IMG/VR virus record: IMGVR_UViG_3300009151_000274
Span: 1 to 29,439 of that record
Source: a virus
DNA length: 29,439 bases
Direction: 5' to 3' (one strand)
Shown: positions 2,699-28,477 of the stretch, piece by piece
Numbering within the stretch: position 1 is the stretch's first letter
Layout of the letters: every line of letters begins with the position of its first letter
Program-made: the position numbers and the translations under genes
Notes under the pieces: model-generated
What the model saw: only the letters and a program-made list of their open reading frames with translations
Database searches by the model: none
What the model was told of the DNA's origin: nothing

Positions 2699-2711
2699 GA
2701 GTAATGTATAA

Positions 2712-2740
2712 AGTATACACTACTTTAATTATCAAGTCAA
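2712..2740 (-). promoter_or_regulatory. Near-consensus sigma-70 promoter for the glycosyltransferase cassette
   Basis: On the minus strand TTGACT (2740-2735) is separated by exactly 17 bases from TATACT (2717-2712). Each hexamer matches five of six bases of the bacterial housekeeping consensus. Transcription would begin near 2705, leaving a leader of about 18 bases that contains GTGAGA. It lies in the 60-base gap between the 347-aa structural gene and the small gene at 2686. None of the TATAAATA-type late elements seen upstream of other genes is present here, so this cassette appears to use unmodified host polymerase. Confidence 0.75.
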
Positions 2741-2758
2741 CGATTTAGGAGTTTAATT

Positions 2759-5333: not shown

Positions 5334-5357
5334 CTGACTCGTTTCCTTATTCTTATA

Positions 5358-5365
5358 TATTTATG
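5358..5365 (-). promoter_or_regulatory. T4-type late promoter variant, CATAAATA
   Basis: CATAAATA on the minus strand matches the TATAAATA late octamer at seven of eight positions. It lies 24 bases before the 498-aa fibre start, almost the same spacing as the perfect copy at 3835-3828. It falls in the 58-base gap 5334-5391, in which I see no terminator hairpin. Confidence 0.55.
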
Positions 5366-5391
5366 CTGTTTTATCTTAAATTTCTAATAGC

Positions 5392-10463: not shown

Positions 10464-12110
10464 TTAACCGTATCTTCGTATCTTTGATCTTGGGTATGTT
10501 GAACCGGTTGTTGGCCTATTTTGGTACCTAGTCATCGGTGAAACTGCTCCTGTTATAGGGCGAACTGCTACGTAGTACAAATATCTATTATTTGAATTGT
10601 CACCGAGTGATGTGTAATCTCCTGCAAGTCCGCCAGTTGATCCAATTTGATTTTTTGTTGAGTTAGCAATTAAATAAGCTAATGCGGCTGTTTGACGCAT
10701 ATTAGGAAATTGTTCTAACAAACACGCTAAGTATCCTGTTACTTGCGGGCCTGCCATACTAGTTCCCGATATACTTCCTATTTTATACGCAGAATTTCTC
10801 GGGTCGTCTGCAAGAGTAATTCCAAATTCCGTAGCGGCATTTGCATCATACACGCTAGAAACAATATATTGTCCCGGAGCCCATATATCAACTCGCTTAC
10901 CGTAATTACTAAAATTACTTTTATATTCAAGAGTAGAAGTAGCTGTAGATCCGACGCAAATAACTTGGTCAGCGGCACTAGGAGAAGAGCCGCGAGTAAG
11001 GTAATATGAGCCGTTGTTGAGAGTGTTATTATAATCTGCTAGGTCTGAAGTTGCACAATTCCAGTAACTATTTCCGGCGCTGCCTACTACAATAACGCCG
11101 TCTGCTATTGCGTCTTGAATATCTGCATCAAGCGCGGCATATCTTGCCGGTGAACGATATAGATAAGTGCCGCCAGGTACCGGAATTCCATTTGCTTCTA
11201 ATACAGTTCTTTTGGCAGCATCAGTTCCTGATAGTGCTGTAGTAGTTCCTCGATATGTTACTGAGGTAAGTCCGCTAAGAAAAATGGAGCCATAACTATA
11301 TCCCCAACTGTTATTTGTAATAGTTGGATTACGTTTTCCAGTTGTTGAATTAATTGGTTTATTTTTATGGAAATATCGAATATAATCAAATATGAATAGC
11401 TCCCAAGAGCCAGACGGGCCATTGCCGCCTAGATAGCCGAATTCCATATTATAAATGTTTGCATCACGAGCCCAACCTTGAGTATTTCCTGCTGTTGTGC
11501 CTGCGGTATGTGTACCATGGGCGCTTGAAATATTAGCATAACTATATGTTCCAGTAGAAGAATATCCTAGTGCCGCGCTATGTTGGAACCAATCATATTG
11601 TATAGCTCTAGATCCGCCTGTGCCATCTATGTTCACTGCAAACTCTGGATGATTAAAATTTATATGTGCATCGACTATTACAACGTCTACATTTTTTCCT
11701 GAACTAGTAGTAGTTACAGTTTGCGTTGTTTGTGTAAATGATCCATTAAGACCCCAAGTTGCTAGATTTGATCCTGCTGTGCATCTATATAATCCCCAGT
11801 TTTTATCATTAGTATCAATAGTTACACTTTTCTCAAAGTTTCCAGTTTGAGTCCAATGCGGGGTTACTTCTATACCTTGTAAACTAGGAATTAGTTCTAC
11901 TGCGATAACTCTCGAATCGTTACGTAACTGTTCAGCTTCGTCAGCAGTTAACAAGAAATGTGTGTTTCTACTAATCTCTCTACGTTGGGTTACCTCTACT
12001 GCCCTGTCGGGAATATAAAGGTCGCCACCAGGAGTTTCTAAATCTTCGAGAAGAGACGTGGCATCGTCCATAGTCTTTGCTGTAACAACATATTCTTGAG
12101 TGTCGGACAT
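10464..12110 (-). CDS. Subtilisin-like serine protease (peptidase S8), 548 aa
   Basis: All the subtilase signature motifs are present in order: catalytic Asp147 in VDVVIVDAHINFNHPEF, His198 in SSAHGTHTAGT, oxyanion Asn347 in VVGSAGNS, and Ser451 in SGTSMAGPQVTG. NNSWGYSYG near 266 is the usual substrate-cleft strand. Residues about 6-80 (EYVVTAKTMDDATSLLEDL to LTADEAEQLRNDSRVIAVEL) look like an I9-type propeptide, so the protein is probably made as a zymogen that cleaves itself. There is no signal peptide, which argues against ordinary secretion and for action in the infected cell or packaging into the virion. An Arg-rich tail ends the protein. It is embedded between fibre genes with a 1-base gap from the upstream stop and a strong GGAGG. 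Possible targets are fibre precursors, or host surface proteins during entry. Confidence 0.93.
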   Translation of the reverse strand: MSDTQEYVVTAKTMDDATSLLEDLETPGGDLYIPDRAVEVTQRREISRNTHFLLTADEAEQLRNDSRVIAVELIPSLQGIEVTPHWTQTGNFEKSVTIDTNDKNWGLYRCTAGSNLATWGLNGSFTQTTQTVTTTSSGKNVDVVIVDAHINFNHPEFAVNIDGTGGSRAIQYDWFQHSAALGYSSTGTYSYANISSAHGTHTAGTTAGNTQGWARDANIYNMEFGYLGGNGPSGSWELFIFDYIRYFHKNKPINSTTGKRNPTITNNSWGYSYGSIFLSGLTSVTYRGTTTALSGTDAAKRTVLEANGIPVPGGTYLYRSPARYAALDADIQDAIADGVIVVGSAGNSYWNCATSDLADYNNTLNNGSYYLTRGSSPSAADQVICVGSTATSTLEYKSNFSNYGKRVDIWAPGQYIVSSVYDANAATEFGITLADDPRNSAYKIGSISGTSMAGPQVTGYLACLLEQFPNMRQTAALAYLIANSTKNQIGSTGGLAGDYTSLGDNSNNRYLYYVAVRPITGAVSPMTRYQNRPTTGSTYPRSKIRRYG

Positions 12111-12111
12111 A

Positions 12112-13428
12112 TTATGCCTCCAGTTGTAGTACTGTTAACGTAGCAGTAATTGCCGCGGCAGACCCGGAAAGGTTTGTAATGTTTATTGGGATTGTAGTAG
12201 TTGGGGAATTTTCACTATTAAAACCAAATGCCCCCGGACTGATAAGAATCGTCTGGGCACCGGTTGTAATTACTTCTGCAATAACTCCAGCACTAGGTAA
12301 CGGATCAGTGGTAGATGCTCTCGATGCATCAGAAGTTCTAGATGCGGCATCTGAATATATTCGAACCCAGGCTGCTGCCGATGTTTGAATTTTTAATAGT
12401 GCATAGGATTTAAATCCAGTAATATTGGCATCTGCATTGGCATTGTTAGCTATACTTGCAGTAGTAGCTGTCACTGTTGTTCGAGCTACTAGTCCAGCTA
12501 CCGTCGCCCAACTTGCAGTCGTGCCGTCTGTCGTTAAGTATTTTCCGCTATTACCAGTTTGAGTCGGGATCGTACCGCTCGGTGTTCCCCAACTAAGTGC
12601 AGTACCGTTAGTAGTTAAATATTTTCCACTATTACTAGATTGGGTAGGAATAGTATCTATCGTCACCCAATTACTTGCTGTTCCGTTAGTAGTTAAATAT
12701 TTTCCAGTTTGTCCTGTTTGTGTTGGTAACACCTTTGTTTCGCCGATGCTGGTAATCCAAGCAGGATCTGCATATGTCTGAGATGTTACTACACCGTTTG
12801 TTGCTACTACTGTTCCAGTTAGTTTACTAGCGGCTAGACTTGTAATCCAACTAGGGTCTGCATAGGTACCGGATGTAACCACGCCGTTGGTCGCTAATAC
12901 TGTTCCAGTTAACTTTGATCCTGCTAAACTAGTAATCCAACTAGGGTCTGCATAAGTACTAGCACTCGATACTGCGTTAGTAACTTTACTAACAGCTAAC
13001 GATGTTAACCAAGCAGGGTCTGCATATACTGTAGTTGTTAGTACAGCGTTAGTAACTTTACTACCTGCTAAACTAGTAATCCAACTAGGGTCTGCATAGG
13101 TACCGGTAGTATAAACCCCATTAGTTACTGTGCTAGCATTACCAATAGCAACGTCTGCCCAGCTAGAAGTAGTTCCGTTAGTTGTTAAGAACTTTCCAGT
13201 ATTGCCGGTTTGTGTCGGTAATGAGTTAGCTGAGGGGTTAGCCCAACTTAATGTAGTTCCGTTGGTCGCTAAAAATAAACCTGAATTTCCAGTCTGACTT
13301 GGAATATTATTACTACTATTTGAATACAGTTCAGTAAAGTTTGCATTTATTTTTATCGCACCTGAACGAAGGGTGTCCCCAGTGCCGTCGTTTGCAGTTG
13401 AACCTGCGTTTAAGAGTTGTTGTGCCAT
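12112..13428 (-). CDS. Repeat-built tail fibre, 438 aa
   Basis: An N-terminal fibre motif (LLNAGSTANDGTGDTL, then INANFTELYS, residues 5-36) is followed by two nested repeat families. Family A (PTQTGNSGKYLTTNGT..W) occurs at residues 43, 71, 235, 261 and 288. Family B (TYADPSWITSLAGSKVTNAV) occurs at residues 111, 135, 159, 189 and 219, with steps of 24, 24, 30 and 30 residues, and sits between copies two and three of family A. The C-terminal 120 residues (YALLKIQTSAAAWVRIYSDA, GVIAEVITTGAQTILISPG, ending LTVLQLEA) form a non-repetitive beta-rich tip that I remember from other marine phage fibres. The likely role is a trimeric adhesion fibre. A 4-base gap follows the giant gene's position in the transcript, and AGGA is the ribosome site. 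Confidence 0.83.
   Translation of the reverse strand: MAQQLLNAGSTANDGTGDTLRSGAIKINANFTELYSNSSNNIPSQTGNSGLFLATNGTTLSWANPSANSLPTQTGNTGKFLTTNGTTSSWADVAIGNASTVTNGVYTTGTYADPSWITSLAGSKVTNAVLTTTVYADPAWLTSLAVSKVTNAVSSASTYADPSWITSLAGSKLTGTVLATNGVVTSGTYADPSWITSLAASKLTGTVVATNGVVTSQTYADPAWITSIGETKVLPTQTGQTGKYLTTNGTASNWVTIDTIPTQSSNSGKYLTTNGTALSWGTPSGTIPTQTGNSGKYLTTDGTTASWATVAGLVARTTVTATTASIANNANADANITGFKSYALLKIQTSAAAWVRIYSDAASRTSDASRASTTDPLPSAGVIAEVITTGAQTILISPGAFGFNSENSPTTTIPINITNLSGSAAAITATLTVLQLEA
12117..12121 (-). promoter_or_regulatory. Strong ribosome binding site, subtilase
   Basis: GGAGG on the minus strand, 6 bases before ATG 12110-12108. It lies within the last codons and stop region of the upstream repeat-fibre gene and confirms the chosen protease start. 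Confidence 0.65.
12502..12729 (-). repeat. Family A coding repeats, copies 3-5
   Basis: Three in-frame copies of a unit of about 26 residues with core PTQTGNSGKYLTTNGT followed by W, in the 438-aa fibre. The remaining two copies lie on the other side of the family B block. Confidence 0.7.
12733..13104 (-). repeat. Family B coding repeats, five copies, 72- and 90-base periods
   Basis: Five in-frame copies centred on YADP(S/A)W(I/L)TS. DNA conservation is visible: the plus-strand core ccaactagggtctgcata recurs three times and two diverged copies read ccaagcagg(g/a)tctgcata. Spacing is 72, 72, 90 and 90 bases. The longer unit contains an added ATNGVVT segment. Recombination between copies could change fibre length without breaking frame. 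Confidence 0.8.
13153..13305 (-). repeat. Family A coding repeats, copies 1-2
   Basis: Two in-frame copies of the PTQTGN(S/T)GK(Y/F)LTTNGT..W unit at residues 43 and 71 of the 438-aa fibre, with a 28-residue step. Confidence 0.7.
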
Positions 13429-13432
13429 CTTT

Positions 13433-16400
13433 TTATCCTTGTTTGTCGAATGTTATATTGCTTATATCGAATGTTCCGTTATTACTATCAAAACTTGTTA
13501 CGCTAAGGCCTGTAGGAACACTTGTTCTTAGCGGAGAATAGCTAATTCCCGGAGTTGCCCTTAGGAAATTAGCAATCTTACTATCATTATTTAAGCTAAT
13601 ATCCCAATTAATTCCTGTTCGTTGTACAACGGTTATTCTAGTACCAACGGATAATGGAGTTAATAATGTAATTTTTTTGCTCGTGCCATCTACTGTAAAA
13701 TCTGCTGGAAGTATTATGTCACCTTCTGAACTGTTAGGAGCAATATTGCTATTATGCATAGTATATGATTTCTTACGTAATCTAATATTTCCTATAAAGA
13801 AAGTGTATACTGAATTAGCACTAATATTTTTAGAAATTATAGTGCCATCTTGTTGTATAGTAGTAACTAAACTACCCCATGCGGATCCGCTTATATGATT
13901 TGCTGTTACTTTATAAGTGTAGCTAGCATATGAAAATATAGATCCAACAAAATAATTGGTGCTAGGTGTCCATTCTGCTATATCGTAGCCGCCTACAAAG
14001 ACTTCAACAGTATCATAATTATGTTGATTAACTAGTGAAGTAGTTGCTGTGAGTTTCGGAATAAACGATATAGGAACATTAGTTGTGCCGTCAGATATTA
14101 CTTGTTCTATATTAGTTGTTTCGGTATATGGGATCGTTTCGCTTGGACCGATATCCTGTACAATCGAACCTGCTGTATGTTTGTTAGGAATTCCTGTACC
14201 CAATGTACCTCTACGGATATTGCTTAATACATTTCCAACTAAGGAGAAATATTCAAGACGTTCTCCTTTAATTTCAATTACCCCTGGTTTATTTTGTGTA
14301 AGATTAGGTTTATCAAAATTACTAGCATCAGCAACTATAATTTGTAAATCATTATAATTTAAATCCTGTACTAGTGTTGTTTTCTTATTAAGACTTAATC
14401 TCTTATAATGTACCCTATTAAGCATATCTTTAAATTGCATGTAGGCAACGCCAGAAGTAATAACATTACTGCTAAACGTAATCAGCATAAACTTATCATT
14501 TGACTGAGGATAAACTGCTAATGTAATACTGCTTCTGTCATCATTAACTTTATAATCAACTGTTGGTGATAGTAACATATTATTTTTTGTCACCCATACA
14601 TAACCGTCATCTATTACTGGTCTCGATAGCACTAGCTGTCCGCCTGCGATATCTTTATAGTAATAGTATTCCGGAGTGTCTGCTACAACTGATTGTGAGA
14701 ACGATACACTAATACTTGTTCTATTAATATCTAAAATATCATGTTGATACGAACTAATAACTTCTATGTAATTAGAAGATGTATATGCTTGAGCAAATAC
14801 TATACTGCCCGCAACTGGCGTTATTGTAGTTTCATGGGCTATCAAGTACGTACCTGGATCTGATGCATACTGTAAGGTAATTGATGTTACTGTGCTAGCA
14901 GTACAGACATATGTTCCGTTGTATAACGGATTAGAATTTCCGTCAACAATATAATTTACACTGGTTAGTGGCGGAGCATCTTGTTGAGTAATTCTAAATG
15001 TTACTTGATATGGTCCTATACCAGTTTTTCCAACTAATAATGTTACAGTATTTTGTGTTGGTGGATAATAAACATATCCAGCACCTGCTGATACTATTAT
15101 AACTAATTGTTTTCCTTTGTTTATGTTGTAAACACGTTTATTAATTTTTATATTAATTCCGGTAAGGTCAACTGAGTAGTCAGAACCTAGTTTTAATAAT
15201 TTGCCATCTACTAAAATAGTTATATCTGATGAGTTCAACGATCCGGATGCAAATGTGCTCGGATCGATTGAATATGTTAATCTATTACTACCAATTGTAT
15301 AATAGGTATTGCTCGGGCCTGGTAATATTGTTTGATCAACTCTAACTATAATACTAGCTTCGTTTGGTAGTGAATTTCCGATCGGATACGTTAGAGGAAA
15401 TACTGATGCAGAAACTGTAGGTGTAATTTTTTCAGTAGTAGTTACAGCAAATGTTTGCTGGTTACCGCTAACAATAATATAATTAATTAAATCTCCGATT
15501 GCAGGAGCCGTATTAAATCTAATTCCTACACGGTTAGGACTTTCATAAGTATTATCTGTTTTAAACAATTGAGCAATTGCCGCTTTGCCGTTTAGATATA
15601 TCAATGATGTCGTTTCATCTATCCACGGAGCCTTGGTGATAAATTCAACTGTTGTTCCGTTGCCTGTTGCATGATCGAGATCTAAAATATTTGCTCCGCT
15701 AAAACCAATACTAAAAATAGTAACTGTTTGGCCAGCAGTTGGGGGTGTTGCTACTAAATTTATCACTGTAATAGTAGTACCAGCGGCTGGTCCTGGAACT
15801 GTTGTTGATACAGCGGTAACAAATGTTATTGTTTTATTTTTATAATCAAGTGTGTAGTCTGTATTATAGTTTTTAATAGTGTTTCCAACTTTAACAATAA
15901 CAGCTCTTGGGCTGTTAGGTGTTTGTGATATAACAAAACTTGATTGTATTCCGTTGGTAATATAATTGTCAATTTTAACTGAGGCTGATCCAGAATTTGG
16001 TTGATCGTATACCTTAATAGCTACAGTATCAACTACTTGGCCTGGAACAACTTCTTCCGGTGCTGGACTTGAAGTCGGTGTTACAAATCCGTCACCGTCG
16101 AGAATAATATCATCAGCGGCTAATCCTGTTGCTGAAGCAAATGCCCCTGTAATAGTTTTAGAAGTGTCACCGCCGCTAATTGCTGAATCATAATCAACCT
16201 GAGGCGTAACGGAACCGTCACTTGTACTCTTTCTCCAAATAAATTCATCTTTATTATTAACTACAAATGTATTTGGAATTGTAAACGCACTATTCAATCC
16301 GTTAGCTACAGGCGATAACATAATAGCATTATGATTAGTTTGTTGCGCTGTTCCGTAGAATGGATCGTCAAGTCGTATTGATGCCGCTGGGCCTTCAATT

Positions 16401-19400
16401 GTAAGGGTAGTACCAGATGCTAACGGGCTAGTCAGTGTAATCGTACCAGTTGCATATATTGTTATGTCGGCCGGAGTTAATAATACTCGAGAAAATGTTA
16501 TAGCTGAGTTATTAGGAATATTAGCTATTAAAATCTGATCTAGTATAAGTGTAGTACTGTTTACAATTGTCTTAATTTTAGCATTGGAATTAAATGCATT
16601 AACTGCCGTGCTAGTTACTACATCGCCCGCTTTTAGTGAGGAGGTACTTGATACCAGTATTGTACTAGATCCTGCAGAGTTATTAACAAAATCTAAAGTT
16701 ATGCCAATAGCTGATATCGGTGCTTTGTTAATTCTTAAGGTAGTCGAATTGACTATCTCTGTTACTTTGTGTAATGAATTAAATCCTCCGCCGACAATCC
16801 CCATTCCAACAATAATACCTGTCGTATTTACAAGTTTTAAACTAGTTCCACTACTGCCCGAACCTGTAGTTTTAGTAACTACGCCAGTTGAATTAACTAA
16901 GACAGATGCTGTAGCGATTGGTCTTGTGTTTGCAATCTTATACTTGTACTGAGTCTGTGCACCGTTAGATGTGTATGTGTCTAGAATATTTTTTATATAA
17001 TAAACATTAAGCACTGTTAGATTTGCTGGTACATACGGTAAGATAAATGAATGTGTATTTGCAGATACTACTGTTATATAATCATCAAATCCTTCATCGA
17101 ACTCATCCCATGCGTCTGTTCCGTAGCCGTTTGAATCCCAGCCGGTGCTGAGATCAAAATTGAGACCATCAACAATAACTCCGCCGTAGTCTACTCCGGT
17201 CATTAACTGACCTAAATCTTTTCCCAAGTCTCTAGATTTTGGATTGTAATAATACTGTATACGATCAGCGGCATTTAATAACGACCAATCTTTTAAATAA
17301 GTTATAGAAATAATTGAGCCAGCGGCTGGTGCTGTAGAAAATTCTAAAAGTCCACTATAACTTGTATATCCTTTAGTTGTAGATTTTACAATACTTAATT
17401 TGTATAAATCTCGTAATACTGATACACCGTTAATAGTAATACTCGATGTTCCTATTCTAATATCAGGTGCCCAAGTTAACTTAAACTGATACAATCCATT
17501 AGATCCGGTTTTTGTTTCTGTTTGTTGCAAAGTAGTTATAAAATAAGATTGTGTAATACGATCAAATTTTATTTTTATTAAATTAGAACGCACAACGTTA
17601 TTACCTATTATAGGATCTGAACTAGTTCCAATTATTGCAACTGCTCTTGCAGGAGTTCCACCTTCTATTAATCCTCCAGTAAACGTAATTGTCGGTGCTG
17701 ACAGGTAACCTTTACCGTGTGTTAACAATATAATTCTACTAACTACTCCGTTAGATGTTAATGCTTTTGCTGTTGCACCTGTTCCTGCTCCATTAGAAAT
17801 AACCACAGTAGGGTCTGAGATATAACCCGACCCTGAACTTACTAATTCTATAGATGTTATAGTGTATCCAATATTATCAAGCCAGTGCTTCCACGGATAT
17901 GTCTGTACGACTGGGTCGGCGACATTAATAGTGTTATTATTAATCGAAGTTAGTATAGCTGATAGTATTTTATTTTCGTAGGCTGATGGTAAATCAAAGT
18001 CAGTAATAGATGTTTGACTAGTGTCAACTTTCTCATACGAACTTACATATTCTCGAATATTTGTTCTGTATGGTTTAACTTCATCAACGTAATCTTCAAA
18101 GTTACTTAAATTATCATTACGATATGTTACCGGCTGTTTTAATTCGCCAACATTATGCTTTGCTTTGATGAAACTAGTTTTAAATATCCAATCAACATAA
18201 ATCTGTTCTGTAAATATATATCGTACACTAACAAAGAACAAATCTAAATATGCACTAGATAAATCATCAATAAAGATATTATCTCGTAAGGCTGTTAAAA
18301 TAATTCTTAATTCATTTGATGCAACTGTATCAAATAATGTTCCATCATAAGTTGAAGCATCATAACCTACAGGAGTTCCTAAGAAACTATATAGATCGGA
18401 ATTAAGCTGTATCGTTCCTTTCTCTATACCGACTACTGTATATGATTGTGTCCAGTCAATACTAGATGAATTTGCATATTTTACTAGCAGTTGCCATCCC
18501 GATGTGCCAGTATATCTTACAATTACTAATTTTCCAATAGCTACTGAATCTGATATCTGAGATAGTTCCGAGTAGGTATTTACAGAATAATCTGCGGCTG
18601 AAAACGAGCTATATCCAGGCGAGTACCAATCAACTTTAGACCAATAATCAGTAACATCATATGTTTTAGTTTTTATTCTTGACCAAATTGCACCAATCGG
18701 ATCGTATGAATAAATGCTCCAGTTGTTTGATGCATTTTCATCCTGATATACTAATACTGAGAAATCTCTAATCAATGCTACAGTATTATTATCATATCCC
18801 GATCCAGAATTTATAACAGTTGCGCCTGTAATTTTTCCAAGACCGTCTGTGCTAATTGTAGCTTTTATCGTTGCTCCTTCCCCGGACCCAACTATGTCAA
18901 TATACGGTGCGGCAGTATAACCTTGTCCTGCATATACAATATTAATGCCTGTAATCTTTCCGTCGATGATAGTCGGTGTTATTGTAGGACGTCTAAATCC
19001 TCCAATATTAGCATAGACTAATTCTGCGGCAGTATCCGCTGTGGTATCGTATTGACCTGAAATCAAACTTGGATAAACATCTGCCGACTGTAGTGCTGAT
19101 AAATTTCTATTTTCAACAATTTGATTCTTTAATAATACTGTGTTTGCTTTTTCCACTACTTGTTTAAGTGCTTCGATGCGATTGATAAACATGCCCTGAC
19201 GTGGGCGATTTTCAATGCCATAACGTAACTTAGCTGGTAAATCTATATCTGGCACTACCCTATCGTAGTCATCTTTGCCGCATAGACTGTCAAACCATTT
19301 CTTTTCAATATTTTTAGGAATAGTTGTACTTGTAGATGAATTAATTAACTTCCACTGACTATGCACATTTTGATCAGTCTTATCTATTGTCCAATATTCT

Positions 19401-22400
19401 ACTGACAATGCTATATCTTTGTCAATTAACAATGGCTTGGCATTAACTATACTAAATGAATTTATTCCAGTTATCGCAACATACGTGTATCCCTGACCTC
19501 TTGGATTTGCAATTAGATTAGAAACTTCTGCGGCAGAAATATGTCTTCCTGTTATATTAGGAACAACTTTTTTATTTTTTACCCAGTAGCAATATGTATT
19601 TTTAAACGTCTGACTTATTGTATCATACTTCTTTTTAATAGAATATGCACTATTTCCGTACAATGAGGTACCACTAATTCCCTGTGCTAATCCAACTTCG
19701 GTGTCAGCTTTTTTATCCCAGTCTACTGGAAGCAGTGTTGTTGATATCCACTCATATACATCAATGCTTGCGCCGTGCGCTAAAGTATTCCATGTACTGT
19801 TTCGATATGCAACTGACGAATCATAACTTTCTATAAATTTAGCAGTTCTAAGGTCCCACCATAGTTGACCAACTTGATCGGTAGTCCATTGAGCATTAGG
19901 ATCAACAGTAACATCTACTCCAATAGAATAAATCGCTGGATCATAAAAAGTGGCATATTTTAATTCTTCAGAAGCAATACCTGGAATTTTTCCTTGCAAT
20001 GGATCGATAATGTCAAGTTTATTCAATAACTGGTCTGTTGTCTTGTTGTATAAAAATGCCTGCTTAATTTTATATGGATCTGGTTTTTCAATTTCAATAT
20101 CCTTAATCGTCCACGAGTATGTATTTGGTGTTTTAATATAATTATAAACTTTACCCGAACGTAATCCTTGGTCAGTTGTAAACGGTGCTCCCACAAACAC
20201 ATTATTATTGCCAATCGCGATTGCCGCACCGTAGCTATCGGCAGTTCTTGTATTAGCTGACAATGTTTCACTGAAGACCCACTTTGATGCATACCTATCG
20301 TATATGTCTACACGGCCGGTATTTGTATTAGTTGTTATAAAATTTGTAGACTTTTTATCAAAGGTAGTTGGTTGACCTGAAATAGTCGGATTCTCAGTTT
20401 GATCTTCATTGAATGTTACAATTGCCTCAGTATCGCCGTGTGTACTATAGACAACTAATGTTTTAAAATCATTCATGAAGGACATTTCGCTTCCGAATCT
20501 TCCATTTATTTGAGGTTGATGATTTTCTAATGCTTGGTACAGGCTGTATGTAGATCCATTGAACTTATACACACTAACTCCGCCCTGCTGTATTGTGCGG
20601 ACACCATCTGTAAGATCGTCTGATATTGCCAAGTATTCGCCGCTAGTCGATAGTGATATCGCTTGTCCGAAATCGTAATCAGTACCTAAGATTGTTTGTG
20701 TTGGTGTTGTACTAAATGTTCCGCTGGCCTTTTTATAAACATATACTTTGCCCGGAACTGATCCTGCGCAAGCAGATATGCTTAGTACGCTAGTATCAGT
20801 ACTTAATGATATAGAATTTCCAAAATTACTTTGAGTTGTTTCTCCTGCATAAATTTTAGATAAGTCATACGTCCAGCTTACTGTTACAAATTTAATAACA
20901 CCGCTAGGGGTAGAATTAGGGCTACCACTTAATACTATGTTCATCGGTGTTACTTGTACTACTGTACGAGTTAATGATGTTGTACCATCAGAAAACGTAA
21001 CATTTGAAATATTTGATAAATCTTGGTGGGCTTGAACTACTACATAGCCTCGGCGAACTGCGGTTGAATCATAATATACTGAGTACACCTCAGTAGGAAA
21101 AGTTACATTTGTTCCGCTCACAAACATACCAATTTTAACTCTTGAAATATCATCGCCAATAGCAAAAAATAGTTTAGTTAATGTATATAGAACAGTTTGC
21201 CCTGAGGTGAATCCTGTTCCGATGATCGACATGCCTGCTTGTACTCCGGTAGTAGAAGTAACTGCTACTGCTCCAAACGCACTGCCTACTGAGTTGTAAG
21301 TTGTAGAAACATGTTCAATTGTAGTATAATTTAATTTGTAAACTCGTCCTCGATTTGTATCGTATCCTAAAGCAGATATGTAAAGTTCATTATCTCCAAA
21401 TACTAAACTTGAACCAAAACGTTCTCCGGCTCGAAACCCGGGGCTTAGTATAGTATCAACTAAATCATATAGTCCGATTGGGTTTCTTTTGTAAAGGGTC
21501 ACTGCGCCATGCAATGTCTTATCTGTGTTTGTTCCAACAATATCTGTGCTAAGATACGGTAGTAATTCCCATACTAAATTAACGCTTGCTGGATTAATTC
21601 CGATAATGCCAGATTGCAATGCTTGATAGTACAAGTTACCTATTGATACAATATCATCAACAGCATATGTTGTAGAGTTGGACCACACACCGACTAGTTT
21701 TGTAGATGCATTCTTAGCTAATGGTGAACCAATAGCAAGCCAAGTACCGTCAGGAGAAAATGCGGCAGAGTCGCCGATTACGCTAGAAGTGACTGTCCGG
21801 CCAACTACAGTAGTATTCGGATCTACACCAAAAACCTCTTTAGCGATACTTGGTCTAGATAAAGTCTGTTGTTGAACCCACAACAAGTTAGATCGTTGAT
21901 AGATTATTGTTTCGCCTGGGCCGTTTAATATTGCTACAACATTTCCAGATGTACTAATAGCTAGTGTTTTTCCGTATTTTAATTCAGGTATAGGAAGAGA
22001 ATTCTTAATATCAACTTCTGAGTAAACCTGATTATATTCCCACGATGCCCATTTTCCAGTACCACTGTCGTCAGTCCATAATAGATCACCCGGCGATACT
22101 GCCTTGGATAAAGCTGTATCAATAGTATCGATTGATGCTGTTCGTTGGCTGATTAACGCAAACACTATTAAATCATCTGCCGGTGTCCATGATGGTTGGG
22201 CACCTTCTGGTGGCTTTGGGGGCCAGCCTGATAGAGTAGTTGATACTGTGAATGTGTTTAATTCTACAGATGTAATTTTATAAAAACCGGATAATCCTAC
22301 AACACCGGATAGGCCAACATACGTTCCTACAGGTAGAGATATTAAATCCTCGCACTTGATTGTAAGTGTTTTATTAGAAGAATTATATACAACTCCTGCG

Positions 22401-25400
22401 TTTAATTCACCTTTTAATACACGTAACTGAAGGTCGGCATACTTGTAAACATTCCATGATATACCTTCAAATGTGCACCAAATATAATCACCGTTATTAA
22501 ACAAATCAATATTAGCTGTGAGTACTTCGTCAATTGTTTTAAAAGTAAATGCAACATCATTTGATTTTACGTAACCTGCACTTCGCAAATACGGATTATA
22601 ATTCTTTAACTTAGGCCAAGGTGCAGAAGCATACCCTAACGGTTTTACATAAACTAAGTTAGGAGTTTGTCTAATAATAAAATCATAATAATTAGTTGAA
22701 TTAACTTGATTTACTAATTCAAATCCTTGCGGATTATTTTTAAATAGTGATTCATCTAAAGTAAATTCAATACTTTCAAATCCAGAACTAGCACCATACT
22801 GCCCGGCCCTAACAGCCCATTCTTCATAGAAGTTTAAACTTTCTTTTCCGTCTGCACTTAATACGTCAAATAATTTATTGAGAACATTTTGTGTTCCTTT
22901 TTCACGAATCATCCCTTGATAGAATTTAAATTCGCTAACATCATCTTGAATAATGTTATTAAGATACTGACGCTTTTGATATCCGATGAGATGTTGGGCA
23001 ACTTTTTGTTGATTAATATCAAAGTTATCGCTGTCTAGACTATAGAAATCAGTAAATTGATTTGCTTTATAATTCCAATTTGGCAATAGTTGAGAGGTAG
23101 GTCTCGTATCAAGTTTTACCCAGTTAGTTGGATTAAACACTTCAGAGCCAGGAAGGAAATGAATAGCACTATAGTAAAAATCTTTGTACTTAACAATATC
23201 ACCCAGGGCATAATCTTTCCATGCCTCCCATGAGTTTACAATAGCCTGATCAAATATAAATCCCGGAATGTCGAAGCCGCCATACCAACCATCACTTACA
23301 TAACCTGATACTTTAATTCGATCTTGTTTGTAGCCGCTTGGGGGATTATAAATCGTATCATTAAACATAGTAGTATTTTTAAGAATTACTACTTGTTCTT
23401 TTTGTACTAGATAGAATGTTGCACAATATATTCCATCAGCAGTTCGAGGTGAATACGTAACATAGTTTTCTTTTCTATACGACTGAATAAAATTAGATTG
23501 AAGCGGTGTACCGTCTACTTTAAATATTTCATAGCCATTAAACGCATTTCTAATATCATCTATTACGCACAAATCTGAATTAAAAGTTAATCTTCCAGCA
23601 GATGGACTTAAACTAATAACACTACTGCCGACTGTACTCAATCCATCTAATTTTATAAAATCTTCTGGGTTAAATATTGCAGTTGCTGGAATAGTTTTAA
23701 TAGCCTTGTAATAATCTCCGTTATATCGTAATATAGAATCAAATACTACTGGGGTATTAGGTGTCCACTCTGCCCATTTATCCTGGCCTGAGGACCAATT
23801 TTGAGTGGTCCAGAATAGAAATTCCTTGGCGCTAGTTTCCCAATTGGTAATTGCATCTAGATTAGAATTATAATCGTCAAATACAAATCCCTGATCCTTT
23901 AACCATTCTCCGTATCCAATAATTACATCATACACTTCTTGTATCGTATCAAATTTAGTGCCGTATGGTATTGTAATTGCTTCAGTTCTATCCCATAACT
24001 TACGTGATAGAACAGTTCTTCCACCTATAATCGGAATTGATTTTAATGCTTGAACATAAGATGAATTAAAGGTTCCAGTAGCAGTATGAGTAACTTGTAC
24101 TCTATAATACACATTATTAAATTTAACAATAGTGCCGGCGGCATATTTCTGATTAGCAGTCCACTGTGCAAATCCTTCAGAGATACCGCCAACATTAATC
24201 GGATTACCAGTCTGCACCCAGTTGTAATAATTAAGGTATGGTCTTGTTAGGCTGTAACCTTTTAATTCATATCCGTCAGATAATTTTGTTACTAGAATTC
24301 CGCTATATGTAATTTTCTTAAGAGGGCTAGAGCTATTTAAAACAATATCGTAATCTTCTTGCGGGACAAATATACTACCTGAACCTAGTGGAGACTTACT
24401 ATCTAGTAGTAAATTAAATTTTTCTTTACTACTAAAAGCGCCAATACGATAGCTAAGTTTAGCTGATAAATTTAATAAATCATACTTGTATGAAGTGTAA
24501 GATTTTAAACTATCACTTAAAATATAATTTACAATATAGTTGATAATACCTGCAGTTTGTACTCTAGTAGAGCTTGTAGAAATATTAGGTAGAACTATGT
24601 CTGACGGTTTTATACGTCTGTTTGTTGCTTTATATACAAGTTGACCTGTCAAATCTCTTACTATTCGTGATCGGTCTAATACTAATCCAAAAGTTTTAGA
24701 TGGTGTTAATAACATAGAAGTTATTAGTATACTAAAAGGATAGTGGCTGCTTCTTCTCCAGGCTGCTTCAACTGGGCTATTATCACCGAATACAAAATTA
24801 TTTGTAGTCGACGGAGTAATTACACCTGATACAACATCTGACTGGAGGGGACTAACTAATACACCTGAATCATCCACTGGTAAGTGTGCCATTAACCAAG
24901 GCTTAATGTATTGTGGTAGTACGGTCGGCGGCACGCCTGGCTGTTTAACAACACCTTGTGAAATATCTGTCCACAACACTGTATTATCTTTAGTATATGG
25001 AGCAGGTCCATATACACTTTGCCACCAGCTAGGTTCGATGGTAAAGCCTAGCATTTCCCAAGGATGGGTATGTGGTCTATCAGTATTATACATCCAAGTG
25101 TAAATACCTCTCCAATACGCAGGTGCATTCTTTCCATCAGGAGTAGCATGCCCTTTATAATTGTAAGTAAATGGATTGTTTCTATCGTAACTTAACGGTT
25201 TAGAAAAATCTCTGTTAATTGATGATGTCCACTTGTAAAAATTCGGAGCAAGTACTTGATCAAATTCTGTTCTGCTGTATGTTTGGTCGTGGCCGTAGCT
25301 CGGAATAACATCAAAAATATTATATATTTTAGGATCATATTCTACTTTAATATTATTAAAGATACGTTTTTCTAATTCTAAAATAATGTTATCTCGATAA

Positions 25401-28400
25401 TCTCCAAATGCCAATGTTAAGCTGCCGTCATGCCCTTGAATCATCATCCGAGGGGTAACTAAAGTAGTATCAAGATAAATTTTAGGTTCGTACTTTGGCC
25501 AAATGCCTAACTTAGTCGGGGTTTCTGGTACAAAACTACCGTCAGTATTGTCATATTCGTAAGTACTAATAGTATCAGTATTAGTCATCACTACTTTATC
25601 TGCAATAATTACAAATCCAGAGCTATCAAACGTATATTCACTTCCGTATATTAATTGAACACCGTTTAAATATATCCCAATTGCTTTATTGCTCAATGTA
25701 GCTAATGTAAAAACGTTAGTTAAAGGATAAGTTTTAATTCGATAATCAACTACTTTGATTTCTGTTCGTATAGCAGAACCATAAGGAACCATATCACTAA
25801 AATAATATGGCAAGTTGGTTGGCTTATCTTTGTTAATCCTATCTAAAATTTGATCTACTTGTTTAGCCGGAGTAGAATCTACTCCTAGTTTTTCAGCAAT
25901 CGTTAGAAATATTTTCTTAAAATTATTATAATCGTCTCTTGCTTTTTCTATAGATCTTACTATATTGTTTGTCTGTGAAGTTATATGATATGTTGATAAA
26001 CTTCCAGGGCCACTATGCTGTACAAACTTTGTACCGTATTGAGTTATGCCGCCAATGTCTCTAATATTTGGATGATCGGGATCAAATGTTTGTCCACTGA
26101 TAGTAGTTGTACTAGCACTCTCGGGTGACACGTCTACTGAGAGCGGCAGATTTTCTATTATTGAACTAACATGATCTTTTACTTCACCCAGGGTGAAGTC
26201 AGTCATGTAATCGTTGAGAGGATTGTTTTGAAAGTTTAACGGTATTTCATAGTAGCCATTACTATTAATTGGCTGAGATGCATACGCTTTAATTGTTAAT
26301 ACTTCAGAATCTTTTAACGGAGTAACTAATTTAACTGATTTGTAAGCAGAGCCTGTGACAATAGACCAATAGCTGTTATCTAGTAAGATACCATTAATGT
26401 AAACTTTAACAACTAAATCTTTTAGGTTCGATATATCGTCAAAAATATCAATGTTGAATGTATTTTTAATGTTTGAATTTTTATAAATTCTAACAGCGGC
26501 TTGAGTATTTTTTACTTCACAGGTTTTCCATCCGTTGACATATAAAGCATTGCCAGCATAGTCACGATTTACTAGGTATCCTAAATCGACTTTGAGCGTT
26601 GCAATGCTAAGATTGTCTTTTTTATAATTAAATTTGTCAGTAGTTAGATCAAAATTGAAAACTATATCGCCGATGTTGTTAATATTTTTATAAGTTAATG
26701 GGAATCCTAAAACAACATCGTTGCTACCTGCAGATGAAACTTTATAAGAAAACAATTTTGTACCTATAAATGTACTACCCGGATAATATAAAATATCACC
26801 ATAACTATGTGAGTTTGCATCAACTACATCAAACAATGGTGGTTGATTTACTGTTAGTTTTTGCTGGGCCGCTGCCCAATTATTGATCGTTTCATTATAC
26901 CAGTACATCTGGCTTTGATTTTTTAAACCTTGCCTTACTAATACTACATCATTGTTAGACGGTGAAGTAAGTTCGATTAAATGAATTTGTCGTCTTCCTT
27001 CTATATTAACAAACTCTACTTGATATATTTTATTTTTAACTAGAGGATCAGTGTCGGCAGTAAATAATATCTTATGGCCTGATGCTAGTGGTGTGCCGTC
27101 AACATTATATCCTAACGATCCCTCAACCGTAGAAAACACATCTTTAGTAAATGTATCAACTAGGTCAATATCGCTAATTGCCTTAGTACCAAAATTAAAT
27201 AACTTTAAGTTTGCTTCAAATTCAATAATAGGACGGGTGGCTCGTGCTGTTTGGTCTAATGACGATGTATTCCCATTAAATTTTGCACTAGCTTCTATAG
27301 CATCTTTATGGAACCATCGATTATACCTTGCCCACGGATTGTGGTCAGCACTTCCTCGATTAGAAAGAATATAATCAGTCTTACCAGCGTATCCCTCAAC
27401 GTCGCTAAACGGTAAAGTATCAAACGGTGTTGAATCAAATAATACAGCAATGTTACTAGAAAAAGGAAATACAACTTCAAGAATAGATTCGTTGACTAGA
27501 GTAATTGCTGTTCCTACACCTTCTACATAATAGTTTCCGGTAGCATATTTTTCAGGAATTACTGTTCCGCCAAAATTCACTTTCATGCCATTAGTCAACG
27601 GTGTTCCGTCGGCTAATACATATTGTGCTTTGCCTAATATATTTTGTTCAACATCGATAATAGAATTATCATCTAATGATAATACTTGTATTACACCACT
27701 TAGTGCTAAATCAGTTTCGCTTTGATAATACAATATACTCGGTGTATCTGACGGTAGTGTTACAGTTATTGTGCCATCAACTACTCCGTACTTGTCAATC
27801 TGTGGTATTGTATATCGGTCAGCTGTTCCTAGTGTCGGTAGTAATTTAATACTAAAAGGATTGCCGGGACTTTTAATTTTAAATGTATATGTTTGTCCTC
27901 TGTATAATCTAAGTACAGGATTGCGTGTTAATCCATTAGGTGTAAATAGATACTCATTACCGTCACCTTCAGATTCTATTGATACAGTATATGTGCTCTC
28001 AATCTTTTGTTTCTGGCCGTAGATGGTAATAAGGTCAGGGCCGTAAGGTAACCAGTAATAGTTTTGAAAATTAACAAACTTATCCCAATCAATGTGCGGG
28101 TTCCAACTATAGAATTCTTGAGAGTTTAATCTAGAATGGTTTGCAGTATTACTTCCAAACACCCCTAACTGATTAATATAGTCAATATAGTCTTTAAAAT
28201 AAGTTGTATTACCTATCGTATCATTAATAACAAAGCTAGGTTCAAACTGATAATTCTGTCTTGTCGTAGTTGGTGCGTTGATATACACATCACTACCAAC
28301 CGCAGCCTTAGCATTCTTGCGGCCGACGAATCCGTTAATCTTTTTAACAGTACCTGGCTGTACTAACTGATCAACTGTTGCTTGTAAAAACTTCTTATTA

Positions 28401-28477
28401 GAATCAGTTTTATAAAAATTTGGAAGAAAATTCGCAGAAACGCTATTTGATCCCGATGGATTAATGCTATCAGCCAT
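13433..28477 (-). CDS. Giant multi-domain baseplate-region virion protein, 5014 aa
   Basis: One uninterrupted frame of 5014 codons starts at ATG 28477, which overlaps the gp6-like stop by one base (TAATG) and has GGAG about 10 bases upstream. Domains that I can see: an N-terminal motif FLPNFYKTDSNKKFLQATVD (17-36) and NPHIDWDKFVNF (about 125-137), both remembered from giant proteins beside gp6 in marine T4-like phages; a cupredoxin-like fold at about 185-265; five short W..Y..G..V....YY modules near 1439, 1571, 1750, 2265 and 4836; a probable seven-bladed FG-GAP-type propeller at about 2165-2785; four GxGY repeats at 3181-3590; G-M-x-I-x-G-x-G-F elements near 2413 and 3883; and GERLEYF..RRGTLGTG near 4739. 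No signal peptide is visible. Its position after gp6 suggests it takes the place of gp7 or the cyanophage VrlC-type gene as a baseplate periphery and adhesion protein. That role is an inference. Confidence 0.85.
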   Translation of the reverse strand: MADSINPSGSNSVSANFLPNFYKTDSNKKFLQATVDQLVQPGTVKKINGFVGRKNAKAAVGSDVYINAPTTTRQNYQFEPSFVINDTIGNTTYFKDYIDYINQLGVFGSNTANHSRLNSQEFYSWNPHIDWDKFVNFQNYYWLPYGPDLITIYGQKQKIESTYTVSIESEGDGNEYLFTPNGLTRNPVLRLYRGQTYTFKIKSPGNPFSIKLLPTLGTADRYTIPQIDKYGVVDGTITVTLPSDTPSILYYQSETDLALSGVIQVLSLDDNSIIDVEQNILGKAQYVLADGTPLTNGMKVNFGGTVIPEKYATGNYYVEGVGTAITLVNESILEVVFPFSSNIAVLFDSTPFDTLPFSDVEGYAGKTDYILSNRGSADHNPWARYNRWFHKDAIEASAKFNGNTSSLDQTARATRPIIEFEANLKLFNFGTKAISDIDLVDTFTKDVFSTVEGSLGYNVDGTPLASGHKILFTADTDPLVKNKIYQVEFVNIEGRRQIHLIELTSPSNNDVVLVRQGLKNQSQMYWYNETINNWAAAQQKLTVNQPPLFDVVDANSHSYGDILYYPGSTFIGTKLFSYKVSSAGSNDVVLGFPLTYKNINNIGDIVFNFDLTTDKFNYKKDNLSIATLKVDLGYLVNRDYAGNALYVNGWKTCEVKNTQAAVRIYKNSNIKNTFNIDIFDDISNLKDLVVKVYINGILLDNSYWSIVTGSAYKSVKLVTPLKDSEVLTIKAYASQPINSNGYYEIPLNFQNNPLNDYMTDFTLGEVKDHVSSIIENLPLSVDVSPESASTTTISGQTFDPDHPNIRDIGGITQYGTKFVQHSGPGSLSTYHITSQTNNIVRSIEKARDDYNNFKKIFLTIAEKLGVDSTPAKQVDQILDRINKDKPTNLPYYFSDMVPYGSAIRTEIKVVDYRIKTYPLTNVFTLATLSNKAIGIYLNGVQLIYGSEYTFDSSGFVIIADKVVMTNTDTISTYEYDNTDGSFVPETPTKLGIWPKYEPKIYLDTTLVTPRMMIQGHDGSLTLAFGDYRDNIILELEKRIFNNIKVEYDPKIYNIFDVIPSYGHDQTYSRTEFDQVLAPNFYKWTSSINRDFSKPLSYDRNNPFTYNYKGHATPDGKNAPAYWRGIYTWMYNTDRPHTHPWEMLGFTIEPSWWQSVYGPAPYTKDNTVLWTDISQGVVKQPGVPPTVLPQYIKPWLMAHLPVDDSGVLVSPLQSDVVSGVITPSTTNNFVFGDNSPVEAAWRRSSHYPFSILITSMLLTPSKTFGLVLDRSRIVRDLTGQLVYKATNRRIKPSDIVLPNISTSSTRVQTAGIINYIVNYILSDSLKSYTSYKYDLLNLSAKLSYRIGAFSSKEKFNLLLDSKSPLGSGSIFVPQEDYDIVLNSSSPLKKITYSGILVTKLSDGYELKGYSLTRPYLNYYNWVQTGNPINVGGISEGFAQWTANQKYAAGTIVKFNNVYYRVQVTHTATGTFNSSYVQALKSIPIIGGRTVLSRKLWDRTEAITIPYGTKFDTIQEVYDVIIGYGEWLKDQGFVFDDYNSNLDAITNWETSAKEFLFWTTQNWSSGQDKWAEWTPNTPVVFDSILRYNGDYYKAIKTIPATAIFNPEDFIKLDGLSTVGSSVISLSPSAGRLTFNSDLCVIDDIRNAFNGYEIFKVDGTPLQSNFIQSYRKENYVTYSPRTADGIYCATFYLVQKEQVVILKNTTMFNDTIYNPPSGYKQDRIKVSGYVSDGWYGGFDIPGFIFDQAIVNSWEAWKDYALGDIVKYKDFYYSAIHFLPGSEVFNPTNWVKLDTRPTSQLLPNWNYKANQFTDFYSLDSDNFDINQQKVAQHLIGYQKRQYLNNIIQDDVSEFKFYQGMIREKGTQNVLNKLFDVLSADGKESLNFYEEWAVRAGQYGASSGFESIEFTLDESLFKNNPQGFELVNQVNSTNYYDFIIRQTPNLVYVKPLGYASAPWPKLKNYNPYLRSAGYVKSNDVAFTFKTIDEVLTANIDLFNNGDYIWCTFEGISWNVYKYADLQLRVLKGELNAGVVYNSSNKTLTIKCEDLISLPVGTYVGLSGVVGLSGFYKITSVELNTFTVSTTLSGWPPKPPEGAQPSWTPADDLIVFALISQRTASIDTIDTALSKAVSPGDLLWTDDSGTGKWASWEYNQVYSEVDIKNSLPIPELKYGKTLAISTSGNVVAILNGPGETIIYQRSNLLWVQQQTLSRPSIAKEVFGVDPNTTVVGRTVTSSVIGDSAAFSPDGTWLAIGSPLAKNASTKLVGVWSNSTTYAVDDIVSIGNLYYQALQSGIIGINPASVNLVWELLPYLSTDIVGTNTDKTLHGAVTLYKRNPIGLYDLVDTILSPGFRAGERFGSSLVFGDNELYISALGYDTNRGRVYKLNYTTIEHVSTTYNSVGSAFGAVAVTSTTGVQAGMSIIGTGFTSGQTVLYTLTKLFFAIGDDISRVKIGMFVSGTNVTFPTEVYSVYYDSTAVRRGYVVVQAHQDLSNISNVTFSDGTTSLTRTVVQVTPMNIVLSGSPNSTPSGVIKFVTVSWTYDLSKIYAGETTQSNFGNSISLSTDTSVLSISACAGSVPGKVYVYKKASGTFSTTPTQTILGTDYDFGQAISLSTSGEYLAISDDLTDGVRTIQQGGVSVYKFNGSTYSLYQALENHQPQINGRFGSEMSFMNDFKTLVVYSTHGDTEAIVTFNEDQTENPTISGQPTTFDKKSTNFITTNTNTGRVDIYDRYASKWVFSETLSANTRTADSYGAAIAIGNNNVFVGAPFTTDQGLRSGKVYNYIKTPNTYSWTIKDIEIEKPDPYKIKQAFLYNKTTDQLLNKLDIIDPLQGKIPGIASEELKYATFYDPAIYSIGVDVTVDPNAQWTTDQVGQLWWDLRTAKFIESYDSSVAYRNSTWNTLAHGASIDVYEWISTTLLPVDWDKKADTEVGLAQGISGTSLYGNSAYSIKKKYDTISQTFKNTYCYWVKNKKVVPNITGRHISAAEVSNLIANPRGQGYTYVAITGINSFSIVNAKPLLIDKDIALSVEYWTIDKTDQNVHSQWKLINSSTSTTIPKNIEKKWFDSLCGKDDYDRVVPDIDLPAKLRYGIENRPRQGMFINRIEALKQVVEKANTVLLKNQIVENRNLSALQSADVYPSLISGQYDTTADTAAELVYANIGGFRRPTITPTIIDGKITGINIVYAGQGYTAAPYIDIVGSGEGATIKATISTDGLGKITGATVINSGSGYDNNTVALIRDFSVLVYQDENASNNWSIYSYDPIGAIWSRIKTKTYDVTDYWSKVDWYSPGYSSFSAADYSVNTYSELSQISDSVAIGKLVIVRYTGTSGWQLLVKYANSSSIDWTQSYTVVGIEKGTIQLNSDLYSFLGTPVGYDASTYDGTLFDTVASNELRIILTALRDNIFIDDLSSAYLDLFFVSVRYIFTEQIYVDWIFKTSFIKAKHNVGELKQPVTYRNDNLSNFEDYVDEVKPYRTNIREYVSSYEKVDTSQTSITDFDLPSAYENKILSAILTSINNNTINVADPVVQTYPWKHWLDNIGYTITSIELVSSGSGYISDPTVVISNGAGTGATAKALTSNGVVSRIILLTHGKGYLSAPTITFTGGLIEGGTPARAVAIIGTSSDPIIGNNVVRSNLIKIKFDRITQSYFITTLQQTETKTGSNGLYQFKLTWAPDIRIGTSSITINGVSVLRDLYKLSIVKSTTKGYTSYSGLLEFSTAPAAGSIISITYLKDWSLLNAADRIQYYYNPKSRDLGKDLGQLMTGVDYGGVIVDGLNFDLSTGWDSNGYGTDAWDEFDEGFDDYITVVSANTHSFILPYVPANLTVLNVYYIKNILDTYTSNGAQTQYKYKIANTRPIATASVLVNSTGVVTKTTGSGSSGTSLKLVNTTGIIVGMGIVGGGFNSLHKVTEIVNSTTLRINKAPISAIGITLDFVNNSAGSSTILVSSTSSLKAGDVVTSTAVNAFNSNAKIKTIVNSTTLILDQILIANIPNNSAITFSRVLLTPADITIYATGTITLTSPLASGTTLTIEGPAASIRLDDPFYGTAQQTNHNAIMLSPVANGLNSAFTIPNTFVVNNKDEFIWRKSTSDGSVTPQVDYDSAISGGDTSKTITGAFASATGLAADDIILDGDGFVTPTSSPAPEEVVPGQVVDTVAIKVYDQPNSGSASVKIDNYITNGIQSSFVISQTPNSPRAVIVKVGNTIKNYNTDYTLDYKNKTITFVTAVSTTVPGPAAGTTITVINLVATPPTAGQTVTIFSIGFSGANILDLDHATGNGTTVEFITKAPWIDETTSLIYLNGKAAIAQLFKTDNTYESPNRVGIRFNTAPAIGDLINYIIVSGNQQTFAVTTTEKITPTVSASVFPLTYPIGNSLPNEASIIVRVDQTILPGPSNTYYTIGSNRLTYSIDPSTFASGSLNSSDITILVDGKLLKLGSDYSVDLTGINIKINKRVYNINKGKQLVIIVSAGAGYVYYPPTQNTVTLLVGKTGIGPYQVTFRITQQDAPPLTSVNYIVDGNSNPLYNGTYVCTASTVTSITLQYASDPGTYLIAHETTITPVAGSIVFAQAYTSSNYIEVISSYQHDILDINRTSISVSFSQSVVADTPEYYYYKDIAGGQLVLSRPVIDDGYVWVTKNNMLLSPTVDYKVNDDRSSITLAVYPQSNDKFMLITFSSNVITSGVAYMQFKDMLNRVHYKRLSLNKKTTLVQDLNYNDLQIIVADASNFDKPNLTQNKPGVIEIKGERLEYFSLVGNVLSNIRRGTLGTGIPNKHTAGSIVQDIGPSETIPYTETTNIEQVISDGTTNVPISFIPKLTATTSLVNQHNYDTVEVFVGGYDIAEWTPSTNYFVGSIFSYASYTYKVTANHISGSAWGSLVTTIQQDGTIISKNISANSVYTFFIGNIRLRKKSYTMHNSNIAPNSSEGDIILPADFTVDGTSKKITLLTPLSVGTRITVVQRTGINWDISLNNDSKIANFLRATPGISYSPLRTSVPTGLSVTSFDSNNGTFDISNITFDKQG

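Follow-up and report, generated by a model that had tools for sequence, protein, structure and literature searches.

We analysed the complete IMG/VR virus record IMGVR_UViG_3300009151_000274, a 29-kb fragment of 29,439 nucleotides (hereafter, the window). The features of the locus are collected in Table 1. The largest is a single gene that begins with an ATG at 28477 and whose stop codon ends at 13433, with zero internal stops. Its start overlaps the stop of a gp6-like gene by one base; because the window is the whole record, this upstream gene is cut, and its 5' end lies beyond the record. The gene order from there on is giant gene, gp10-like gene, subtilase gene, phrog_11259 gene, and fibre genes.

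Table 1. Features of the window (positions of the 29,439-nucleotide stretch; residue numbers refer to the giant protein).
Feature	Coordinates	Strand	Basis
gp6-like baseplate wedge gene, C-terminal 320 aa	28477..29439	minus	phrog_10646 baseplate wedge subunit, E 2.5e-72
Giant gene, predicted virion protein, gp7 position	13433..28477	minus	5014 aa, 552.6 kDa
Block A, residues 1-2089, nearly fixed length	22211..28477	minus	segment lengths, conservation
Cupredoxin-fold insert without copper ligands, residues about 158-273	27662..28006	minus	AlphaFold2 model
CBM5/12-like module, residues 1438-1468, better of two stretches in its slice	24074..24166	minus	PF02839
Candidate gp7 core motif, residues 1831-1900 (KGT at 1860)	22778..22987	minus	rank 1 of 165 windows, joint cyanophage and T4 profile
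Variable region 1, residues 2090-2789, FG-GAP propeller repeats	20111..22210	minus	PF14312 match at residues 2743-2778
Block B, residues 2790-3799, nearly fixed length, G-x-G-Y modules	17081..20110	minus	model of 2781-3560, mean pLDDT 78.6
Variable region 2, residues 3800-4299	15581..17080	minus	279-1071 aa in 21 copies
Module resembling cyanophage gp7 profile columns 52-156, residues 4682-4804	14066..14434	minus	hhalign score 53.4, probability 44.7%; best reversed 22.4
438-aa baseplate/fibre protein, T4 gp10-like N-terminus	12112..13428	minus	phrog_958 E 5.5e-8, phrog_677 E 6.7e-6
Subtilase-family protein	10464..12110	minus	PF00082 97.4 bits; phrog_9158
204-aa protein, frequent downstream neighbour of the giant gene	9786..10400	minus	phrog_11259 E 7e-61, function unassigned; synteny

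The 438-aa protein, whose gene starts 4 bases past the giant gene, matched T4 gp10 at 44% over 59 aa. Tandem repeats of 90 and 72 bases were found within this gene, at 12752-13113. Among 20 relatives, the gene next to the giant encodes a gp10-like N-terminus in 12, phrog_11259 in seven, and neither in one, and phrog_11259 lies downstream of the giant in 11 of the 20 within the DNA examined. Compared as an alignment of four sequences, the phrog_11259 protein matched none of T4 gp8, gp9, gp10, gp11, and gp53 or P-SSM2 gp8. Farther downstream (3837-9782), three consecutive genes have a common N-terminal domain and differing C-terminal ends, one of them a collar domain. phrog_14394 was matched near the N-terminus of all three and phrog_15511 in two; the trio is perhaps a fibre set mounted on one anchor type. 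Two ORFs in tandem (284 and 282 aa) at 659-2339 look glycosyltransferase-type; both lack a Pfam match, and the only PHROG match was that of the first ORF to phrog_1903 (function unassigned; E 0.0027).

The initial annotation had described a single uninterrupted gene of 5014 residues, and the frame proved exact. A scan of IMG/VR with residues 1-1000 returned at least 592 relatives among 600 stretches, and 80 loci were kept. From these loci, 36 of 36 records contained a single open frame of 4461-5659 aa that matched without stops, although frames in this whole-record search may be clipped by the contig end. In twenty of these copies, of 4520-5658 aa, both the start and the stop codon are present. 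Since the median of the 21 complete copies, the window included, is 5014 aa, the window copy is average for the group, and its size is not exceptional at this locus. The giant was also compared with one relative of 4978 aa (L089), to which it is 84-85% identical across residues 1-1000. The dN/dS ratio was 0.11 overall (dS 0.83, dN 0.089); individual 500-codon windows, ten in all, gave 0.07-0.14, and the 14 codons left over at the end 0.30. The open frames in relatives, the complete copies, and the dN/dS ratio rule out an assembly artefact or a chance frame; the giant frame is one real gene under purifying selection along its whole length.

For family assignment, the giant was searched against PHROG as six overlapping slices. 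Slices 1 to 4 matched PHROG 10938, "virion structural protein" (E 4e-105, 3e-131, 7e-55, and 5e-79), with the best stretches between profile positions 23 and 2140 of 3324; the match covers roughly residues 1-3100. Slices 5 and 6 (residues 3601-5014) had no PHROG 10938 match. As for the adhesin-like repeats of the initial annotation, neither of the last two slices has a Pfam or PHROG match naming an adhesin. The repeat modules of slice 4 additionally matched PHROGs 2885 and 708, "baseplate wedge subunit" (E 1e-15). Two results count against a baseplate reading: the same modules match PHROG 460, "head closure Hc2", and the PHROG category of 10938 is "head and packaging", not tail.

The named members of PHROG 10938 are shorter than the 5014-aa window giant, with 3326 aa in RaK2 (ORF070), 3340 in CBB (gp236), 3857 in Ettore, 4449 in Atu_ph07 (gp180), and 4555 in Phosso. 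They are homologous to it over blocks A and B. In all five phages, the giant directly follows an annotated baseplate wedge gene. However, RaK2, CBB, and Ettore have 176-226 aa where the window giant has the 700-aa propeller region, and they lack the cupredoxin insert. Ettore, Phosso, and Atu_ph07 resemble the window in having phrog_11259 close downstream, whereas in RaK2 it is 7 kb off on the opposite strand, and in CBB it was not found within the DNA examined. Table 4 of PMC5259590 lists CBB_236 among proteins detected in purified virions by mass spectrometry (21 unique peptides, 7.72% coverage); we equated locus gp236 with CBB_236 by gene number. Both this detection and the family membership agree with the earlier description of the giant as a phage virion protein. 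The giant is thus predicted to be a virion protein, virion presence being shown by mass spectrometry for the CBB relative. For RaK2, 54 virion proteins are reported, and ORF070 goes unnamed in the section on virion proteins (PMC3622015). The consulted parts of PMC6102473 and PMC10253068 do not name Atu_ph07 gp180 and RaK2 gp070, respectively.

Another relative was recovered from BFVD, the uncharacterised "YHYH domain-containing protein" A0A6J5L0K2 (UniProt) of an uncultured Caudovirales phage, which was compared as one 1165-residue piece. It is 58% identical over residues 2781-3560; therefore, a relative of the giant is already in public databases. The search of BFVD with the model of residues 2781-3560 otherwise returned members of the giant's own family; cyanophage structural proteins were matched over short or partial stretches, among them the baseplate wedge initiator of phage Bellamy (E 2.7e-4).

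Segment borders within the giant were set manually on the conservation profile, and segment lengths were measured in the 21 complete copies. Block A varies little (SD of 12, 4, 1, and 27 for residues 1-899, 900-1429, 1430-1789, and 1790-2089), and so does block B (SD of 6 and 4 for residues 2790-3559 and 3560-3799). Variable region 1 has 514-939 aa in the 21 copies and about 1310 aa in Phosso and Atu_ph07, and the part from residue 4300 to the end has 530-1072 aa. We read the giant as blocks A and B, both fixed in length, separated by a variable region with the FG-GAP propeller and followed by a variable tail. This pattern of fixed blocks and variable inserts is modestly new. Alignment A1 started from 137 candidates including the window, of which 76 were kept and 75 used, near-identical rows and L120 (wrong start) being dropped; A3 comprised 30 of 45 kept rows; and A4 comprised 54 rows (116 reduced to 55, two short rows dropped, and L002 added).

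Most of the modules named by the initial annotation were found again. Its propeller is backed by one FG-GAP repeat, for which PF14312 scored 33.7 bits (cut-off 23) in slice 1801-2900 and 22.3 bits for the same residues in slice 2701-3800; we read the repeats of variable region 1 as a putative seven-bladed propeller. Its sugar-binding-like modules correspond to CBM5/12, as PF02839 reached 34.1 bits (cut-off 26.2) in slice 901-2000, with 14.1 and 21.3 bits in two other slices, where the sub-cut-off matches lie at residues 2265-2289 and 4835-4867. These modules may bind carbohydrate. The G-x-G-Y repeats occur six times. By profile, residues 2781-3560 matched only the tailspike Dpo31 (E 0.0073), over the G-x-G-Y region. 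The fold search with the model of these residues gave no PDB match below E 0.21; its best VIA Z score was 3.7 over 46 residues, to a tail chain of Klebsiella phage Kp7. No gp7 chain is among the listed fold matches of this model, which excludes nothing. Searches against PDB sequences with residues 1-1100 and with a profile of residues 1-1040 gave a best E of 0.46 (a chance CD4 chain), and none at E 10 for the profile.

The cupredoxin-like domain was confirmed at the level of fold on a predicted structure. In the AlphaFold2 model of residues 1-1040 (mean pLDDT 82.2), residues 158-273 aligned to 2dv6_A with a VIA-align Z of 11.6 and an rmsd of 2.2 over 100 residues; this domain fills the listed matches, and the rest of the model is barely covered. 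In the alignment, RaK2, CBB, and Ettore have a gap at the insert, which is unrecognisable in Phosso and Atu_ph07. The ligands of type 1 copper sites are His, Cys, His, and Met, and the corresponding positions of the window giant read Asn, Ser, Asp, and Leu. Among 75 aligned rows, seven of them gapped there, the Cys was found in none, the first His in two, the second His in none, and the Met in none. The insert has therefore retained the fold but not the metal site. In contrast, the cupredoxin module of P-SSM2_028 (match of 97.5%) keeps all four ligands as judged by eye.

The upstream context was resolved with relatives. As stated initially, the giant follows a gp6-like wedge gene, as T4 gp7 does, and in 20 of 20 IMG/VR loci examined, an ORF of 1148-1216 aa ends less than 200 bases from the giant start. 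The gp6-like family (25 sequences, from these 20 loci and the five named phages) matched T4 gp6 with an hhalign probability of 65.6%, against 0.2% for the reversed control; three more weak segments, each at 2.2% or below, kept their order. The match to P-SSM2 gp6 reached 96.4%. Further genes were sought in ten relatives, namely the five named phages and five IMG/VR contigs of 161-170 kb. In every one of the ten, gp25 is located 3.6-4.1 kb upstream of the giant. P-SSM2 likewise has gp25 before gp6. The T4 gp25 gene is not near gp6 and gp7, so that this arrangement is P-SSM2-like and not T4-like, which counts against the wedge reading. All ten also have a gp23-type (T4-type) capsid gene, one match being clipped by the contig end; this result comes from the relatives, as the 29-kb window record contains no capsid gene. 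A T4 gp7 profile built from seven sequences, which recovered T4 itself, found no other gp7 in any of the ten at E 10.

In T4, the slot after gp6 is occupied by gp7, a protein of 1032 aa. The part of PMC3004832 consulted describes it as a monomeric wedge protein present six times in each tail. In P-SSM2, the gene between gp6 and gp8 is annotated as gp7, "baseplate wedge initiator" (5195 aa), and the annotated gp7 of P-SSM4 has 7312 aa. By record coordinates, the gene after gp6 encodes 4458 aa in MED4-213, 4225 in ACG-2014f, 3891 in S-8S53, 3544 in ACG-2014b, 3007 in S-SSM7, and 1454 in S-CRM01. The names of these six differ: two are called baseplate wedge initiator, and the other four baseplate wedge subunit, structural protein, gp7, and gp7-like. 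A protein of 1454-7312 aa thus follows gp6 in eight cyanophage records (P-SSM2 and seven more); four of the eight carry the name gp7 or gp7-like, and another two that of "baseplate wedge initiator". A gp7 of such size is known from GenBank annotation, not from a paper. Given the P-SSM2 and P-SSM4 proteins, the view that the size of the giant is remarkable is not supported. At the other extreme, a 242-residue protein of phage XM1 is called a T4 gp7 ortholog and binds tail spikes, according to the part of PMC10457771 consulted; proteins called gp7 or its ortholog therefore span 242 to 7312 residues. The gp7 of PMC10966104, in the part consulted, is a neck protein and is irrelevant here.

The giant was also compared in sequence with gp7 itself. 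The whole giant matched T4 gp7 with an hhalign probability of 0.2%, against 0.1% for the reversed control, which is not significant. With a larger alignment, the comparison with T4 gp7 remained negative for the slice 1650-2080 (score 22.2; reversed control 25.4), and in a HMMER search with the gp7 motif the giants fell within noise. In contrast, cyanophage gp7 matched T4 gp7 at 95.8% over 89 columns. The N-terminal match to gp7 foreseen by the initial annotation did not appear; weak resemblance to gp7 was instead seen around residues 1831-1900. The core motif of gp7 (FYxxKG...LF) was scored in 165 windows of 70 residues. The window at residue 1831 ranked first with the joint profile, scoring 19.6 against a mean of 9.3 and an SD of 2.1 (4.9 SD above the mean) and a best reversed score of 14.7. 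It also ranked first with the cyanophage-only profile (22.0) and fourth, at noise level, with the T4-type profile alone. The three profiles comprised 15, 8, and 7 sequences, respectively; S-CRM01 lacks the motif pattern and was left out, so that eight of nine cyanophages were in. This test was designed after the resemblance had been noticed, the motif itself being defined from T4 and cyanophages alone.

The best matches between the giant and cyanophage gp7 were the module at residues 4682-4804 and the G-x-G-Y repeats. Such common modules do not prove common descent. The P-SSM2 and P-SSM4 proteins share with the giant the slot after gp6, a same or larger size, and modules; however, cyanophage gp7 is recognisably related to T4 gp7, whereas the giant is related only weakly, at one motif, with no significant end-to-end similarity. 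T4 gp7 likewise lies directly after gp6 in a T4-superfamily phage, but it is far shorter and its sequence similarity to the giant is not significant. Given the weak motif hint, the negative whole-protein comparison, and the post hoc nature of the test, we therefore regard the giant as a positional and probable functional equivalent of gp7, not as a proven homologue. Other tail proteins were compared as well. Among 16 P-SSM2 tail proteins besides gp7, PSSM2_028 matched through its cupredoxin module (97.5%) and PSSM2_019 through G-x-G-Y repeats (72%), and the other 14 did not stand out; T4 gp5, gp8, gp9, gp10, gp11, and gp53 did not match the giant.

Other explanations were weighed against this assignment. 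The giant might be a receptor-binding fibre or adhesin that is merely encoded beside the wedge genes, which we consider unlikely. The CBM5/12-like modules, the FG-GAP repeat, a C-terminal third rich in serine and threonine, and a length that varies between phages past residue 3800 would all suit such a protein, but the dN/dS values of the ten 500-codon windows reveal no fast-evolving tip. Furthermore, mean identity to the window over aligned positions of 20 relatives is at least 0.39 in every 100-residue bin, with only half to three quarters of the relatives having residues in some C-terminal bins (about half in one bin); there is no hypervariable tip as expected of a receptor-binding protein. 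The presence of gp25 upstream in all ten relatives and of separate fibre-type genes downstream, one with a collar domain, also speaks against a fibre.

We give very little credence to a polyprotein that the adjacent subtilase would cleave into several baseplate proteins. The subtilase-family gene does begin only 1.3 kb downstream of the giant stop, but just 3 of 20 relatives have one in the 1.6-4.2 kb of downstream DNA examined (some of the others may have it farther away), and the five jumbo-phage loci (L082-L086) have no subtilase match. Moreover, the main virion proteins of RaK2 run at their predicted mass in the consulted part of PMC3622015, the giant not being among those named. The PHROG label "head and packaging" might point to a tape measure or a head protein, but this is highly improbable, given that both modelled regions (1-1040 and 2781-3560) are strand-rich in their predicted structures, with few long helices, and that RaK2 has a separate tape-measure-like gene and a capsid gene.

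The giant is thus probably the third chain of the baseplate wedge in a contractile-tail phage of the T4 superfamily, equivalent in position to T4 gp7 but enlarged to 5014 residues. The interpretation in the initial annotation is partly supported: the virion family, the gp6-adjacent position, and the many modules hold, whereas the N-terminal gp7 match and the remarkable size do not. By analogy with T4, one copy would most likely be present per wedge, hence six per virion, which amounts to about 3.3 MDa per baseplate (six times 552.6 kDa) if the T4 stoichiometry holds. A short conserved core may pack against the gp6-like dimer, and a long multi-domain arm would extend outward on the baseplate. 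This arm may carry fibre proteins, with the gp10-like 438-aa protein, the phrog_11259 protein, and the products of the collar-fibre genes as candidates for docking. Blocks A and B would form the constant framework, whereas the propeller region and the region past residue 3800 would be sites of domain gain and loss between phages. Tentatively, and with more doubt than conviction, we propose that a single chain makes up most of the peripheral baseplate, for which T4 uses several proteins (gp7, gp8, and the attachment sites of gp9 and gp11). It would then combine a constant gp7-like framework, two loading sites for surface-binding or spacer domains, and a cupredoxin recruited as a plain structural domain.

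Jumbo phages and marine cyanophages already offer examples of a giant protein at the gp7 position, which makes the window protein one of a known kind. Connecting the PHROG 10938 giants with the gp7 slot is modestly new; this connection was not found in the literature searched, which took in few subscription papers. With that same coverage, searches on giant or very large phage and baseplate proteins returned nothing on the PHROG 10938 giants, and a search on the largest ORF of RaK2 returned the CBB paper only. No role had been named for the RaK2-type giant virion proteins; linking them to the T4 gp7 slot makes their role testable. At this locus, a 15-kb phage gene is the norm in a large group of uncultured phages, and cyanophages have counterparts of the same size. 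In Synechococcus phage S-SKS1 (HQ633071.1, 137911-140279; locus L215), the gp7 locus is unannotated, yet a long P-SSM2 gp7-like frame is present.
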